DNA of 64,000 bases, from assembly GCA_945860545.1 (NCBI GenBank), contig CAMAQM010000001.1:62001-126000 (forward strand), written 5' to 3'. Source of the stretch: Bifidobacterium breve (GTDB lineage Bacteria; Actinomycetota; Acidimicrobiia; Acidimicrobiales; Acidimicrobilacustridaceae). Position 1 is the first letter of the stretch, and every line of letters begins with the position of its first letter. Made by a program: the position numbers and the translations under genes. Under the pieces are notes generated by a model. The model searched no databases and had not been told where the DNA came from. It saw only the letters and a list, made by a program, of their open reading frames with translations. This document shows positions 5,062-39,665 of this stretch, one piece after another.

Positions 5062-6405
5062 ATGACAGCCATGGAGCGGCAGCAGGAATATGCCCTGCGG
5101 ACAGTCGAAGAGCGCGGGGTCCGGCTGATCCGGCTGTGGTTCACCGACGTTCTCGGTCAACTGAAGTCGGTGGCCATTTCGCCCGCCGAGCTCGAGGTGG
5201 CGTTCGAGGAGGGTGTGCACTTCGACGGTTCGGCCATCGATGGGTTCAGCCGGGTCCAGGAGAGTGACGTGCTGGCACGGCCTGATCCGGCCACGTTCGA
5301 ACTCGTGCCGTGGGGTCGCGAGGAGGACGTTTCGGCCCGCATGTTCTGCGACATCCTGGGCACCGACGGCACCCCGTTCGACGGTGACCCGCGTCACGTG
5401 CTCAAGCGGAACCTCGACCGTGCCCGTCAAGCGGGATTCCAGTTCATGGTGGCGCCCGAGATGGAGTTCTTCTACTTCTCTCACGGGGATCCCACCCGAC
5501 CCCTAGAACCTCTTGACACCGGCTCGTACTTCGATCTCACTACCACCGATGCGGCCAGTGACCTGCGCAAGCGCACCATCGCCATGCTTGAGGCGCTCGG
5601 CATTCCCGTCGAGTACTCGTTCCATGAGGACGCCCCCAGCCAGCACGAGATCGATCTGCGCTACACCGACGCGTTGACCATGGCCGACAACGTCATGACG
5701 TTCCGTCTGGTGGTGCGAGAAATCGCTCTTGAACGCGGCAGTTACGCCACCTTCATGCCCAAGCCCCTCGAAGGAGTGCAGGGGTCAGGCATGCACACGC
5801 ATCTGTCGTTGTTCGGTGAGGACGGCAACGCCTTCCACGACCCGTCGGGGGCCTACGGACTGTCCAAGGTGGCCCACGGGTTCATCGCCGGGCTGTTGGT
5901 GCACGCCCCGGAGATCACGGCGGTCACCAACCAGTTGGTGAACTCCTACAAGCGTCTGGTGCATGGCTACGAGGCACCCACGTGGGTGACCTGGGCCCGC
6001 AACAACCGTTCGGCGTTGGTGCGTATCCCCGTGACCAAGCCGGGCAAGGCGTCATCGACCCGTATCGAGTTCCGGTCCCCCGACCCGGCGTGCAACCCGT
6101 ACCTGGCGTTCGCGCTGATGCTGGCGGCGGGCCTGCGGGGCATCGAGCGGGGGTACGAGTTGCCCGATGAGTCGGTGACCAACGTGTTCGAGCTGACGCC
6201 CGCCGAGCGTGCGGCCGCCGGCATTGGTGCGCTCCCCCAGTCGTTGTCCGAGGCGCTCGACGTCATGGAGGGGTCGGACCTGGTGGCTGAAGCACTCGGG
6301 GAACACATCTTTGAGTGGTTCCTGCGCAACAAGCGCAACGAGTGGCAGGCCTACAAGAGCCACGTCACGCCCTTCGAGTTGGCCCGCTACCTGCCGAGCG
6401 TCTGA
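5062..6405 (+). CDS. glnA2: Type I glutamine synthetase, GlnA2-like
   Basis: A 447-aa GSI that matches the M. tuberculosis GlnA2 class from start to end by recall (FTDVLGQLKSVAI, FDGSAIDGF, MADNVMTFR, the conserved C-terminus FLRNKRNEW). The tyrosine that is adenylylated in GSI-beta enzymes is absent: the loop reads NVFELTPAER. Activity is therefore unlikely to be switched by GlnE. GlnA2-type enzymes are implicated in glutamine or isoglutamine metabolism, and some relatives glutamylate polyamines. Start ATG 5062 has a strong GGAGGTGAAAGT site. The GlnR-like gene follows after 4 bp, indicating one operon. Confidence 0.92.
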   Translation: MTAMERQQEYALRTVEERGVRLIRLWFTDVLGQLKSVAISPAELEVAFEEGVHFDGSAIDGFSRVQESDVLARPDPATFELVPWGREEDVSARMFCDILGTDGTPFDGDPRHVLKRNLDRARQAGFQFMVAPEMEFFYFSHGDPTRPLEPLDTGSYFDLTTTDAASDLRKRTIAMLEALGIPVEYSFHEDAPSQHEIDLRYTDALTMADNVMTFRLVVREIALERGSYATFMPKPLEGVQGSGMHTHLSLFGEDGNAFHDPSGAYGLSKVAHGFIAGLLVHAPEITAVTNQLVNSYKRLVHGYEAPTWVTWARNNRSALVRIPVTKPGKASSTRIEFRSPDPACNPYLAFALMLAAGLRGIERGYELPDESVTNVFELTPAERAAAGIGALPQSLSEALDVMEGSDLVAEALGEHIFEWFLRNKRNEWQAYKSHVTPFELARYLPSV

Positions 6406-6409
6406 GCCG

Positions 6410-7090
6410 ATGGAACCGCTCCTCGTTCATCCCGACCCGCCACCGGCAGACCTGGTGGCGGTGCTCGATGCCAGCGGGTACCCGTGGAAGGCCGTCGGAA
6501 CCGACACCGACGTGGACCGTGCCGAACCCGTCGACGGATGGTCGGGTGCGGTGGTGTGTGCCGATGTCGACCCTGAACGGGCGTTCGCCGTGTGCCGGAC
6601 GTTGCGCAAGCGCGACGTGCCGCTGCAACCACTGTTGTTGATCGTCACCCCAGCACAACTCACCGACCTCGAACTGCGGGACGAGTTGTTCGACGACTTC
6701 TGCCTCACTCCGCTGGCACCGCGCGAGGTGGCGGCACGACTCACCCACCTGTTCTGGCGCACCGGGCAGGGCACCCGTCCCGAGTTGGTGGAGTACGGCG
6801 AGTTGGTCCTCAACCTCGAGACCTACCAGGCCGCCATCAGTGGTTCGCCCATCGACCTCACCTACATGGAGTACGAACTGTTGAAGTTCCTCGTCTCCCA
6901 CCCGGGAAAGGTCTTCACCCGCGAGACACTGCTCAGCCGGGTATGGGGGTACGAGTACTACGGCGGGGCCCGGACGGTGGACGTCCACATCCGGCGTCTA
7001 CGGGCCAAACTTGGTGAGGAACATGCCGGTCTGATCCAGACCGTGCGCTCAGTGGGTTACCGGTTCGGCCAGTCCCGCTGGGGTCTGTAG
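6410..7090 (+). CDS. glnR: GlnR-like OmpR-family orphan regulator
   Basis: A 226-aa two-domain protein. The N-terminal about 115 residues are a degenerate receiver fold without a clear phosphoacceptor aspartate cluster, and the C-terminal winged helix contains DLTYMEYELLKFL and TVDVHIRRLRAKLG, nearly the same wording as in actinobacterial GlnR. GlnR controls glutamine synthetases, ammonium transport and nitrite reductase without a cognate kinase. The gene starts 4 bp after the GlnA2-like stop, so it is probably co-transcribed with a gene it regulates. The glnR name rests on the missing phosphosite, the DNA-binding helix wording and location; another orphan OmpR regulator remains possible. Confidence 0.8.
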   Translation: MEPLLVHPDPPPADLVAVLDASGYPWKAVGTDTDVDRAEPVDGWSGAVVCADVDPERAFAVCRTLRKRDVPLQPLLLIVTPAQLTDLELRDELFDDFCLTPLAPREVAARLTHLFWRTGQGTRPELVEYGELVLNLETYQAAISGSPIDLTYMEYELLKFLVSHPGKVFTRETLLSRVWGYEYYGGARTVDVHIRRLRAKLGEEHAGLIQTVRSVGYRFGQSRWGL

Positions 7091-31819: not shown

Positions 31820-33337
<1,518 letters not shown>

Positions 33338-33387
33338 GACCTCGTGGTCCCCTCAACGGGTCGGGTGCCGACGGGAGCATTTCACCA

Positions 33388-33954
33388 ATGGCTGATCAGA
33401 CGTTGTTCGCCGACGAGGCGATGCCGTTCATGAACCAGATCTACTCGGCCGCGTTGCGGATGACCCGCAACGCGTCGGACGCCGAAGATCTCGTCCAGGA
33501 GACGTACCTGCGGGCGTACCGGGGGTTCGGGGGGTTCAAGGAGGGTTCGAACCTTCGGGCGTGGCTGTACCGGATCCTGACCAACACGTTCATCAACCAG
33601 TACCGGGCCCGTCAGCGTCGACCCGACGAGACCGAGCTCGACGAGCAGGAGGACCTGTACCTGCTGCGGCGCATCGGCGGCCTCGAGGCGGTGAACGCCG
33701 GCCGTAGCGCCGAGGACGAACTCATGGACTACTTCACCGACGGGGAGGTCACCTCCGCCCTCGACGACCTGCCGGAGAACTTCCGGCTGCCGGTTCTCCT
33801 TGCCGACGTCGAAGGGTTTTCCTACAAGGAAATCGCCGAAATGCTCGACGTTCCGATCGGGACGGTGATGAGTCGGCTTCATCGGGGAAGAAAAGCCCTC
33901 CAGAAGGGGTTGTACGACTACGCCAGTTCCCGGGGTCTGTCCCCGACGAGCTGA
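33388..33954 (+). CDS. ECF sigma factor, SigR/SigH-like
   Basis: A 188-aa ECF sigma. Region 2 has [28 protein letters not shown] and [16 protein letters not shown]; region 4 has [26 protein letters not shown] and [14 protein letters not shown]. These match the thiol-stress sigma class (SigR of Streptomyces, SigH of mycobacteria), and the downstream gene encodes a zinc anti-sigma with RsrA-like cysteine spacing. GGGAG lies 10 nt before the ATG at 33388. Promoters of the GGGAAT/GTT type would be expected; I did not find a convincing copy upstream of this gene. Confidence 0.9.
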
Positions 33955-34505: not shown

Positions 34506-35573
34506 ATGCCTCCGTCCGCCGTCGACTGGTCGCTGGCGGAACGGGTGGCGGTGCGGGTGGCGGGACGCGAACCGTTCGCCGAGTCGTACCACGCCGATTC
34601 CCTCGGACCTGACTTCGACCGGTTCACCGCGCTCGCCGAAGACCTGGTTGCGGACTGCACCGGTCTGCGCAGCGGTGCCGGCCCGGCCCGGGCGAGAGTC
34701 ACCGACCGCGCCGGTTGGATCGCCGCCAACGTGGCGTCGTTCGGTCGCCTGTTGCGTCCGGTGCTCGAACGTTTCGACACCGCGGCGGGGGCGCACCTGC
34801 TCGCCCCGGTCACGAGCCGCATCACCGGAGCCGAAGTCGGGTTGATGTTGGGCTGGCTCAGTACCCGCGTGCTCGGTCAGTACGACCTGTTGGTCATCGA
34901 AGACGAGGACCCCGAGGAACAGGACCTCGTGTATTACGTCGGACCCAACGTGTTGTCGCTCGAACGACGGTTCGCCTTCCCACCCTCGGAGTTCCGCTTG
35001 TGGCTGGCGCTCCACGAGGTCACCCATCGCGCCCAGTTCACCGGCGTGCCGTGGATGCGACCCCACTTCCTCGGCATGGTCGAACAGGTGGTGGCCGCCG
35101 TCGGACCGGACCCGGCCCGCTTCGCTGCCGCCATCGGCCGCGCCGCCGACGCGCTGCGTCACGGCCGCAACCCGCTCGCCGACGGTGGAGTGATGGCCCT
35201 CGTGGCCACCGACGAACAGCGCGAGGTGATGGAACAGATGTCGGGGTTGATGAGCCTGCTCGAGGGTCACGGCGACGTCACCATGGATCGGGCCGGCGCC
35301 CATCTGATCCCGTCCGCGCCCCGTTTCGCCCGGGTGCTCCGTCAGCGCCGTCAACAGGTCAGCGGTCTGGCCCGGGTGTTCCAGCAACTCGTCGGTCTTG
35401 AGGCGAAACTGGCCCAGTACGAACAGGGCGAACGGTTCATCGCCGCAGTGGAATCGGCCGATCCGGCCCTCATGGATCGTGTGTGGTCGGACCCGGCGCT
35501 GTTGCCGTCGCTGGCCGAGATCCGCCAACCCGAGATTTGGGTGGCGCGGGTGCGGGCCGGTGCACCCACCTGA
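34506..35573 (+). CDS. DUF2342-type zinc-dependent metalloprotease-like protein
   Basis: A 355-aa protein of the family sometimes labelled coenzyme F420 biosynthesis-associated or zinc-dependent metalloprotease (DUF2342, Rv3626c-like). The HExxH motif is LHEVTHRAQF, and Asp/Glu ligands are expected in the helix that follows. An N-terminal mixed domain carries the motif AGWIAANVASF. The target is unknown. No signal peptide, so a cytoplasmic role is likely. It precedes tilS and hpt as in mycobacteria; the DacB carboxypeptidase normally upstream is absent. Confidence 0.87.
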   Translation: MPPSAVDWSLAERVAVRVAGREPFAESYHADSLGPDFDRFTALAEDLVADCTGLRSGAGPARARVTDRAGWIAANVASFGRLLRPVLERFDTAAGAHLLAPVTSRITGAEVGLMLGWLSTRVLGQYDLLVIEDEDPEEQDLVYYVGPNVLSLERRFAFPPSEFRLWLALHEVTHRAQFTGVPWMRPHFLGMVEQVVAAVGPDPARFAAAIGRAADALRHGRNPLADGGVMALVATDEQREVMEQMSGLMSLLEGHGDVTMDRAGAHLIPSAPRFARVLRQRRQQVSGLARVFQQLVGLEAKLAQYEQGERFIAAVESADPALMDRVWSDPALLPSLAEIRQPEIWVARVRAGAPT

Positions 35574-35587
35574 CCCGGGTCGCTGAC

Positions 35588-36490
35588 GTGCACCGTGACG
35601 ACGTGACGGCGTCGCTTCTCGAGCGGTGTGTGTTCCCCCCCGCCGGTTCGCCACTGGTGTGTGCCGTCTCGGGCGGTGCGGACTCGCTGGCGTTGCTCAT
35701 TTTGGCCACCGCGGCGGGGTGTGACACCACCGCTGTCCACGTCGACCACCAGTTGCGACCCGGCTCGGAGACCGAGTCGGCCGTTGTCGCCGCCGCGGCG
35801 CGGCGCCTCGGGGCCGGGTTCCGTGCCGAACGGGTGACGCTGGCCCCGGGCCCGAACCTTGAAGCCCGTGCCCGGGAGGCTCGTTGGGCGGTGCTCGGTT
35901 CGGACGCCGCCACCGGGCACACCGCTGACGACCAGGCCGAGACGGTGCTGTTGAACCTGTTGCGTGGTGCGGGGGTGTCGGGGCTCGCCGGGATGCGACC
36001 CGGACCCCGTCACCCGATCCTGGGGCTGCGCCGCAGCGAGACCGAGGAGTTGTGTCGGCTGTGGGAGTTCTCCCCCCTGCACGACCCTTCCAACCGGGAC
36101 CCCGCCTACCGACGGAACCGTGTCCGTCACGAGGTCCTCCCACTTCTCGGCGAGGTCGCCGAGCGTGACCCGGTGCCCCAACTGGTGCGGACCGCCGCAC
36201 AGGCCCGCCTGGTGGTCGACCACCTTGAGGCGGAAGCCGACCGTCTCGTTGCTGATCCCACCGACCTCGCTGCGGTGCGATCCGCACCGTGGGCGGTGGC
36301 GTCGGTGGCGTTGCGCCGCTGGTTGCGTCAGTGCTCCCCCGACGGTCAGCCGCCTGACGCGGCGTCGATGGATCGGGTGCGCGCCGTGGTCGACGGGCGG
36401 CATCGGGCCACCGAGGTGGTTGGGGGATGGCGGGTGGTGCGCAGCGCCGGCCGGCTCTCCGTCGAACCGCCGGCCGGAGGCGTCGACTAG
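35588..36490 (+). CDS. tilS: tRNA(Ile)-lysidine synthetase
   Basis: A 300-aa enzyme that converts C34 of the CAT-anticodon isoleucine tRNA to lysidine. PP-loop [11 protein letters not shown] (residues about 22-32), [29 protein letters not shown] and [21 protein letters not shown] are all canonical. Short actinobacterial form lacking the C-terminal TilS domains. GTG 35588 is preferred over the longer track ORF; GTG 35603 is possible. The TAG stop shares the palindrome CTAG with the convergent hpt stop. Confidence 0.93.
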
Positions 36491-37047
36491 GCCGAGTCGT
36501 CGCGGTGCAGCCGGATGTCGTCGAGGTTGCGGTACCGCTCGGCGACGTCGAGGCCGTAGCCCAACACGAAGTCGTCGGGGATGGTGAACCCGACGTAACG
36601 GATGTTGGTGCGTTCCGCCGTCCCGTTGCGGGCCAGAAGTGCGCACACCTCCAACGACGCCGGGTTGCGTGACGCCAGGTTCTTGCGCAGGTAACTCAAC
36701 GTCAGGCCCGAGTCGATGATGTCCTCAACGAGGATGACCTGACGGCCGGTGAGGTCGGCGTCGAGGTCCTTGACGATGCGGACCACCCCGCTCGTCTTGG
36801 TGGCGCTGCCGTAGGACGAGACGGCCATGAAGTCGAATTCGACGGGCAGGTCGATGCTGCGGGCGAGGTCGGCCATGAACATGAACGCCCCTTTGAGCAC
36901 CCCGACGAGCAGTGGGGCTTCACCGACGTAGTCGGCGGTGATTTCCGCTCCGAGTTCGGTGATGCGGGAGCGGAGCTGGTCGGTGGTGACGAGCACCTCA
37001 CCGAGTGCGGGGTCGGTGTGGCGGTTCCAGATGGGGGTGTCACTCAC
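36487..37047 (-). CDS. hpt: Hypoxanthine-guanine phosphoribosyltransferase
   Basis: A 186-aa PRTase salvaging hypoxanthine and guanine. The PRPP loop is [13 protein letters not shown], the PP-loop [16 protein letters not shown] and the purine-specific region [16 protein letters not shown] 37047 starts 109 bp from divergent folE. In mycobacteria tilS and hpt point the same way; here hpt is inverted relative to tilS and overlaps it tail to tail by 4 bp. Confidence 0.94.
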
Positions 37048-37788: not shown

Positions 37789-38619
37789 GTGCCGGTCTCG
37801 TTGAGTTCCACACCCCGCCCGTCCCCCGTCGTGATGGGGGTCCTCAACGTGACCCCGGATTCGTTCTCCGACGGAGGCCAGCACGACGGTGTGGAACGGG
37901 CGGTCGCCAGGGGGCTGGCGATGGTTGCCGAAGGCGCCGAGGTGATCGACGTCGGCGGCGAGTCGACCCGGCCGGGCGCCGACCCCGTCGGCACCGACGA
38001 GGAACTGCGCCGGGTGGTCCCGGTGGTCGAAGCTCTCGCTGACGCACTCGGTGGCTCGGTTCGCATCTCCGTTGACACCCGGTCTGAGGCGGTGGCTTCC
38101 GCTGCGGTGCGGGTTGGCGCCACGCTCATCAACGACGTGTCGGCCACGCTGTGGCCGGTGGCGGCGGAATGTGGTGTGGGGTGGGTGGCCATGCACGGGT
38201 GTGACGACCCCCGAACCATGCAGGCCAACCCGACGTACCGGGACGTCGTCGCCGAGGTGACGGCGTTCCTCGTGGAGCGGGCCACCGTGGCACGCGCCGG
38301 GGGAGTCGCCGAGGTGTGGATCGATCCGGGGTTCGGGTTCGCCAAGACCCCCGAACACAACCTGAGGGTGCTCGCCCACCTCGACGTGTTGGTGGACACC
38401 GGGTGGCCGGTGGTGGTGGGGACCAGTCGCAAGAGCACGTTGGGGCTGTTGTTGGCCGACGCTGACGGTGTTGGGGATCCTGTGCCCGTCGACGACCGTC
38501 TCGAGGGCTCGGTGGCCACCGCCGTGTGGTCGGCCGCCCAGGGGGTCCCGATGGTGCGGGTCCATGACGTGGACGCCACCGTTCGTGCGTTCCGGGTGGC
38601 CTTCGGTGGGCTCGACTGA
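37789..38619 (+). CDS. folP: Dihydropteroate synthase
   Basis: A 276-aa TIM-barrel enzyme condensing p-aminobenzoate with dihydropterin pyrophosphate; the sulfonamide target. MGVLNVTPDSFSDGG, DVGGESTRPGAD, NDVSA, and GTSRKS are conserved. The PABA loop around the first motif looks intact. GTG 37789 (or 37786) lies 5 bp after the folE stop, so they are co-transcribed. Confidence 0.95.
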   Translation: MPVSLSSTPRPSPVVMGVLNVTPDSFSDGGQHDGVERAVARGLAMVAEGAEVIDVGGESTRPGADPVGTDEELRRVVPVVEALADALGGSVRISVDTRSEAVASAAVRVGATLINDVSATLWPVAAECGVGWVAMHGCDDPRTMQANPTYRDVVAEVTAFLVERATVARAGGVAEVWIDPGFGFAKTPEHNLRVLAHLDVLVDTGWPVVVGTSRKSTLGLLLADADGVGDPVPVDDRLEGSVATAVWSAAQGVPMVRVHDVDATVRAFRVAFGGLD

Positions 38620-38663
38620 GCCCTCTAGGGACCCCGGTCAGCCTCACCGGGAGCGTCCGAGCC

Positions 38664-38672
38664 TGTGGATAA
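38664..38672. promoter_or_regulatory. Consensus DnaA box (TTATCCACA on the minus strand)
   Basis: TGTGGATAA is a perfect 9-mer DnaA box inside a 134-bp gap of lower GC content than the surroundings. A single box suggests a titration or regulatory site, not an origin. Confidence 0.5.
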
Positions 38673-38681
38673 CTGATGTTT

Positions 38682-38717
38682 GGTGGTTATTTTCCCCAAC
38701 GGTGAGCGGTTTTCCCC
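38682..38717 (+). repeat. Two imperfect direct repeats ending in TTTTCCCC
   Basis: GGTGGTTATTTTCCCC (38682-38697) and GGTGAGCGGTTTTCCCC (38701-38717) are separated by 3 bp, just after the DnaA box and 37 bp before the next start codon. Possible binding sites for a regulator. Confidence 0.45.
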
Positions 38718-38741
38718 GCGTTTCGTCCCCGGCCTCGTGTC

Positions 38742-38747
38742 AAAAAT
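38742..38747 (+). promoter_or_regulatory. -10 element (AAAAAT) of the phosphatase-like gene
   Basis: Six nt before the ATG at 38754, as in the other leaderless starts. The hexamer itself is a weak match. Confidence 0.35.
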
Positions 38748-38753
38748 GGCACG

Positions 38754-39275
38754 ATGTCCGCCGTGGCAGTCAAAGGCAAGTGGCAGCAGGGGATCGTTCC
38801 TCGCAATTTTCACTGGATCATCGACGGGCAACTCGCCGTGTGCGAGCGGCCCGGCGGGTACGGGGTGAATCACCGACGGGTCCGTCGGCAGGAGGAGATC
38901 GTCTGGATCCGTGAGCAGGGGTTCACCTCGGTGATCTCGCTTATCGGGGCGCCACACAACCTTCACAACTACGACGAACTCGGGGTCTCCTGGCAGCACT
39001 GGCCGTTCCACCGCGACGAGGACGTCTCGGGGTTCCAGCGCCGGAACTTCCCCCAGATCACCGCAATGATCTCCGGTGGCGGCAAGTTGCTGATCCACCA
39101 AGAGGAACTCGGGGACAACGTGTGTGGCCTGATTGGGGCCTACCTGTTGTGGTCGGGACTCGTCGACAACGCCCCGGACTCGGTGACCATCCTCGAACGC
39201 ATGGTGCAGCGCCAACTCGGCCCGCACGGGCGCGAGATCGTGGCGGTGGCGGACCGACTCGTCAGCCGGGCGTGA
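38754..39275 (+). CDS. Dual-specificity-phosphatase-like pseudoenzyme
   Basis: A 173-aa protein whose pattern follows the cysteine-phosphatase fold: a strand WIIDGQLAV near the start, EIVWIREQGFTSVISL, a WPFHRDED segment where the general acid aspartate loop should be, and GGGKLLIHQEELGDNVCGLIGAYLLW where the P-loop HC-x5-R belongs. The cysteine is Gln116 and the arginine Asn122, so classical catalysis should be impossible. It lies inside the folate cluster between folP and folB but has its own upstream gap with a DnaA box and repeats. It could bind phospho-ligands as a regulator or be a different enzyme. I know of no name for it. Confidence 0.65.
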   Translation: MSAVAVKGKWQQGIVPRNFHWIIDGQLAVCERPGGYGVNHRRVRRQEEIVWIREQGFTSVISLIGAPHNLHNYDELGVSWQHWPFHRDEDVSGFQRRNFPQITAMISGGGKLLIHQEELGDNVCGLIGAYLLWSGLVDNAPDSVTILERMVQRQLGPHGREIVAVADRLVSRA

Positions 39276-39287
39276 GACGGGCCGGAC

Positions 39288-39665
39288 GTGGCTGATTTCG
39301 CGGTGTCCGGCGACCTCGTTGAAATTCGCGGGCTGCGGCTGTCCGGCATCGTCGGTGTGTTGCCTGAGGAGCAGGTCCGGGCCCAGCCGCTCGAGATCGA
39401 CGTCGACCTCGTCTGCGACCAGTCCGCATCCGGGGTGAGCGACGACCTTGACGACACCGTGAACTACGCGGCGGTCATCGATCGGGTGCAACAGATCGTC
39501 GAGGGTGGTCACCCGGCGCTGCTCGAGTTTCTCGCCGCCCGCATCGCCGAAGGTTGTCTCGACGACCCCCGGGTGGAACGGGTCACCGTTGCGGTGCGCA
39601 AACTCCGGCCCCCGGTTCCCCAGGCGGTCGACACGACGGGTGTGCGCATCACCCGGACCCGATGA
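39288..39665 (+). CDS. folB: Dihydroneopterin aldolase
   Basis: A 125-aa T-fold enzyme that cleaves dihydroneopterin to 6-hydroxymethyl-dihydropterin. EIRGLRLSGIVGVLPEE at the start, DDTVNYAAVIDRV in the middle (the Tyr near the pterin) and VRKLRPPVP with the catalytic Lys toward the end. GTG 39288; stop overlaps folK in ATGA. Confidence 0.94.
   Translation: MADFAVSGDLVEIRGLRLSGIVGVLPEEQVRAQPLEIDVDLVCDQSASGVSDDLDDTVNYAAVIDRVQQIVEGGHPALLEFLAARIAEGCLDDPRVERVTVAVRKLRPPVPQAVDTTGVRITRTR

Follow-up and report, generated by a model that had tools for sequence, protein, structure and literature searches.

Most known pseudophosphatases come from animals and protists. In the human pseudophosphatase STYX, the Cys is replaced and the rest of the P-loop is retained. 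Active cysteine-based dual-specificity phosphatases carry the signature HC-x5-R-[ST] at this loop, and compact members of the fold include DUSP23/VHZ and the archaeal Tk-PTP. In Tk-PTP, Arg127, which lies in the alpha4-alpha5 loop, contacts the P-loop (PMC5965843).

The gene described here, termed X, is flanked by folP and folB in a stretch of DNA of 64,000 nucleotides, the window (Table 1). A sequence-only reading of the window had proposed that X encodes a phosphatase-fold pseudoenzyme with a regulatory or scaffolding role tied to folate or to replication.

Table 1. Positions in the window of X, its two key segments and its neighbours
Feature	Position	Strand	Basis or remark
folP, upstream neighbour, separable from X	37789..38619	+	ORF list, locus comparison
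folP-X gap, 134 bp, one perfect DnaA box	38620..38753	+	not conserved in relatives
X, pseudophosphatase gene, 173 aa	38754..39275	+	ORF, genome searches, AlphaFold2, Foldseek
Invariant basic beta1-alpha1 motif, residues 31-51, ERPGGYGVNHRRVRRQEEIVW	38844..38906	+	conservation; kept in sister family
Degenerate P-loop HQEELGDN, residues 115-122 (canonical HC-x5-R)	39096..39119	+	alignment, conservation
folB, downstream neighbour, 12 bp after X	39288..39665	+	ORF list, locus comparison

Occurrence and conservation of X

The X ORF opens with an ATG at 38754 and closes with a stop at 39275, and the protein begins MSAVAVKGKWQQGIVPRNF. The observation that this is a real gene, not a chance ORF, is confirmed. 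X is encoded in all 61 genomes of the first search, which covered its own genome and its relatives, and it is near-universal in the class Acidimicrobiia, where 362 of 395 sampled genomes have it. Across the genome collection there are 582 candidate X stretches, and the record titles assign the family to the Acidimicrobiia. A published signature-protein survey of this class was seeded from A. ferrooxidans (PMC5962788) and may have overlooked X. Compared with the copy from the same genus, X has a dN of 0.186 and a dS of 1.28 (dN/dS about 0.15), and the protein is therefore under purifying selection. Its identity across loci is about that of tilS and higher than that of folB.

Some records are irregular. 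One contig (G006:C50) carries two inverted X copies with equal scores, at 33144-33653 (-) and 34718-35227 (+), which are probably an assembly palindrome. The titles of several MAGs (L087, L099 and L146, Bifidobacterium breve; L100, Thermoanaerobacterales) do not fit their loci, which show the gene order of Acidimicrobiia and the family.

Phosphatase ancestry and predicted fold

The X protein of the window has no match in Pfam or NCBIfam, and among 58 members of the family the matches of DSP type are weak and scattered. A profile of 58 family members (A1), compared with the PDB, has 25xa as its best match (E=2e-11, with most of its length aligned), followed by VHR/DUSP3 at an E of about 0.002-0.01. 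In this alignment HQEELGDNV falls on HCRAGYGRT of 25xa, a solved dual-specificity phosphatase, which bears out the earlier placement of HQEELGDN at the HC-x5-R position.

The AlphaFold2 model of X is confident (pLDDT 94.2, pTM 0.88), and Foldseek matches it at probability 1.00 to DUSP23/VHZ, KAP, Cdc14 and PTEN, with a TM of 0.80 by target for DUSP23 (2img). Because the model matches phosphatases at this probability, the comparison with dual-specificity phosphatases that had been suggested as a check, with an unrelated fold as the adverse outcome, favours the sequence-only reading. Taken together, the 25xa profile match and the Foldseek result indicate that X, as modelled, shares ancestry and fold with the cysteine-based dual-specificity phosphatases. 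A search of the window's own genome for a Tc-R-P phosphatase-type protein found none.

Loss of the active site

P-loop conservation was counted over 179 distinct X sequences. The invariance of HQEELGD, raised as a question in the earlier reading, is not seen; His115, which is His in all 179, is the sole fixed residue of the loop. Most relatives read HxEELGDR, not HQEELGDN, and the family as a whole follows an approximate pattern, H-x-[DE]-x-[LVIF]-x-D, with D121 being Asp in 165 sequences and Glu in 8. The Cys position is occupied by G, Q, A, R, H, S, N, M and others, and by Cys in two sequences (HCDDIDDQL in L070, HCEEVSDKL in L215). The Arg position holds Arg in 126 sequences, Thr in 15 and Asn in 5, the window included. 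Cys and Arg never occur together (0/179), the P-loop Gly is replaced by Leu, Val, Ile, Phe or Met throughout, and the residue after the Arg position is Ser or Thr in one sequence and something else in 178. The HC-x5-R-[ST] signature of active enzymes is absent from all 179, and the failure to find an intact HC-x5-R in any orthologue upholds the claim of a pseudoenzyme.

With Gly lost as well as Cys, a working phosphate cradle is unlikely. The Arg kept in 126 sequences means that residual anion binding may persist at that position. It is extremely improbable that X is still a phosphatase that uses another nucleophile. The invariant His115 and the Cys124 found in many members of the order could be read in this way, but Cys124 is not conserved outside the order, and the substitution of Gly in every sequence should destroy the phosphate cradle.

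The sequence-only reading had also described the acid loop as looking conserved, a description that calls for correction. In the loop before the P-loop, where active enzymes carry their general-acid Asp, Asp or Glu is found at residues 89-90 within the order; in deeper members, acidic residues are scattered and not conserved, the alignment being loose in this loop. With a predicted phosphatase fold, its catalytic residues gone and its selective retention, X is, as far as the model goes, a pseudophosphatase.

A gained basic motif

The strongest conservation in the X family is found in an N-terminal motif and not in the P-loop. Its consensus is ERPGG-x4-HRxVRRxEExxW, also written ERxGG-x4-HRx[VI]RRxEE. 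E31 is present in 175 of 177 sequences, and R41, R44, E48 and W51 are each present in 177 of 177. Throughout the protein, E31, R32, G34, G35, H40, R41, R44, R45, E47, E48, W51, N69, Y73, H115, R153 and R160 are nearly all conserved at 97-100%. The HRxVRR segment is absent from the intact-signature relative 25xa, which in the alignment has a 6-residue gap where helix alpha1 begins. By its place in the fold, this segment corresponds to the loop with which phosphatases recognise their substrates, on the rim of the active site. Judging by their positions in the predicted fold, the invariant residues probably cluster around the old active site. The loss of catalysis combined with the gain of an invariant basic insertion suggests that the old site may have been re-used.

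The acidic residues of the P-loop (E/D117, E118, D121) could pair with the basic ones of the new segment. X might accordingly be a structural subunit, in which internal salt bridges between the acidic loop and the Arg segment would give a stable surface within a complex. Being short, single-domain and single-copy in nearly all genomes, X would suit such a role, but its invariant loop residues H40, R41, R44, N69 and R160 exceed the usual needs of folding, and this explanation is quite unlikely.

A sister family in another actinobacterial class

When 297 genomes of the phylum were searched, a sister family came to light in 4 genomes outside the Acidimicrobiia, all of one family, and a search of 199 genomes of their class found it in 33. 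Aligned profile to profile (hhalign, A1-A2), the two families match at E=2e-31 over 163 columns. The sister profile also has 25xa as its best match (E=1.5e-6), and its predicted model has the same fold as X. The sister family keeps ERPGGGGRSHRxxRRxAExxW and His115, and shares the acidic residue at 121 with X. Its P-loops read HCDRVSEW (e.g. L226, L236), HVNRPGEW or HGNRHTDF; unlike X, it often retains Cys, and Trp or Phe stands at the Arg position, Arg never being in place. The motif is kept while the P-loops differ, and it is therefore the motif, not the P-loop, that defines the superfamily. The active site was thus broken differently in each branch. With a class-wide core family and an outgroup, the claim of a pseudoenzyme is stronger than it was when proposed.

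Sister genes adjoin a 4HBT thioesterase gene, not folate genes. In L221 (4952-5455 (-), with 6248-6673 (-)), and also in L219, L220 and L222, a conserved neighbourhood holds the 4HBT thioesterase, a sigma-70-like factor and a sugar transferase.

Separation from the folate cluster

The usual gene order in the class is tilS-hpt-(gap)-folE-folP-X-folB-folK-DUF2520-panC. The folP-X gap is at most 20 bp, or the genes overlap, in 34 of 60 loci, with a median of 14 bp (n=60). With so little distance between them, and with folP and folB on either side of X in most of the class, co-transcription of these genes is probable. In the window, hpt (36487-37047 (-)) is inverted relative to tilS and folE, as it is in the same-genus locus L082. 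The roughly 2 kb of gene space that many relatives have between hpt and folE is absent; the missing gene, by position, may presumably be ftsH.

From the placement of X between the two fol genes and the separate upstream control region, the sequence-only reading had proposed a regulator or scaffold of the folate pathway, which is now very unlikely. The position of X in most of the class and its small distance from folP fit the proposal, but X is not restricted to folate synthesis genes, and the two can be separated both ways. In 16 loci the flanking folate genes have been lost or moved and X is kept after tilS, at 12-81 bp in the 15 of these loci where the distance is measurable. In ten of the 16 genomes no DHPS scores above the curated cut-off: 6 have folK elsewhere beside a DHPS-like gene below the cut-off, and 4 have neither a DHPS-like gene nor folK, the completeness of these genomes being unstated. 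Conversely, nine genomes from two related families lack X and have DHPS and HPPK, with folP-folB-folK contiguous, and the genes of the sister family lie away from folate genes. The folate role is rejected on this decoupling in both directions. In Acidimicrobiia, X has tilS, a tRNA-modification gene, as a persistent neighbour. To go by gene neighbourhood alone is misleading in this case.

Several of these loci have features of their own. In L111 (5944-7374), L116, L122, L129 and L150, which are without local folate genes, X comes directly after tilS. In L111, X is followed by a formamidopyrimidine-DNA glycosylase gene, then a prenyl diphosphate synthase-like ORF and clpC. In G436, G438, G440, G444, G445 and G449 (e.g. 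G440:C532:7790-8960), folK is divergent beside a DHPS-like gene that scores 118-145 bits, below the cut-off; such a pair is possibly a relocated alternative folate cluster. A closed genome of 2.2 Mb (G073) lacks X.

The earlier reading had also seen a separate control region upstream of X and a possible link to replication. The folP-X gap of the window holds a single perfect DnaA box, TTATCCACA, at 38664-38672 (-), where 0.03 would be expected in the window by chance, and two TTTTCCCC runs are found near it. A DnaA-like box lies upstream of X in 1 of 60 loci and is absent from the same-genus L082, which does not share the 134-bp region either. The control region is local to this genome, and the replication link is rejected on the distribution of the box. 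In relatives, folP and X are usually at most 20 bp apart. A sigma-70 promoter scan upstream of X, an Rfam search and a plasmid search each found nothing. Of the interpretation first offered, the phosphatase-fold pseudoenzyme stands on the profile, the predicted fold and the universal loss of the signature, and the role in folate or replication does not.

Proposed function

It can be held with high confidence that X has the fold and homology of a phosphatase, that Cys, Gly and Ser/Thr have been lost and a basic motif gained, and that the gene is kept without folate genes. The best overall explanation is a pseudophosphatase turned ligand-binding adaptor, which has about an even chance of being right. 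The step to a ligand-binding adaptor, taken by itself, is more tentative. A dual-specificity-phosphatase fold of the DUSP23/VHZ kind would have given up phosphate chemistry at an early stage, no later than the radiation of the class, and strong purifying selection would then have maintained it as a core protein of the cell. The phosphate loop may have become an acidic loop (H-x-[DE]-x-x-x-D), which with the new Arg/His-rich segment would form a putative site for an anionic ligand or partner, such as a phospho-protein, a nucleotide or RNA. On this view X would be a sensor or adaptor and not an enzyme.

The density of invariant charged residues would also fit a new enzyme on the old fold, in which the invariant E, R, H, D, N and Y residues form a non-phosphatase active site. 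About 15 positions, mostly charged or polar, are conserved at 97% or more over the class, many of them common to the second class, and such density is commoner for catalysis than for scaffolding. Against this, family and structure searches give no other enzyme, and no metabolic neighbourhood persists everywhere beside X. A new catalytic function is rather unlikely, though it is the chief rival; an adaptor that binds a ligand or partner on a dead phosphatase is the most likely reading.

The broadest form of this proposal is that an ancient pseudophosphatase family is common to two actinobacterial classes, its dead site having been rebuilt around ERPGG-HRxxRR as a putative receptor for a nucleotide, phospho-protein or structured RNA, or as a new catalytic site; this is conceivable, and on balance doubtful. 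If true, X would be, going by the literature searched, the first bacterial pseudophosphatase reported to be core to a whole class; these searches found no bacterial class-wide pseudophosphatase. X is near-universal in its class, has no Pfam or NCBIfam model and about 15 near-invariant positions, and its sister is broken differently. The family therefore offers a clean system for studying what a phosphatase fold does after catalysis is lost.

Comparison with known phosphatases

The compact dual-specificity phosphatases DUSP23/VHZ and Tk-PTP are similar to X in length and have the same fold as that predicted for it. X differs from them in lacking HC-x5-R, the P-loop Gly and the Ser/Thr that follows, and in having an extra basic insertion. 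The near-invariant R153 of X falls in the alpha4-alpha5 loop, as does Arg127 of Tk-PTP (PMC5965843). The closest match in sequence for both the X family and its sister, 25xa ("Dual specificity protein phosphatase family protein"), has the PGG loop in common with the X family. 25xa has an intact HCRAGYGRT and is without the HRxVRR insertion, whereas the X family has the insertion and has lost the signature. Finally, STYX, represented among the fold matches by 2r0b, shares with X a dual-specificity fold in which Cys has been replaced. X differs from STYX in that Gly and Ser/Thr are also gone and a new motif has become fixed.
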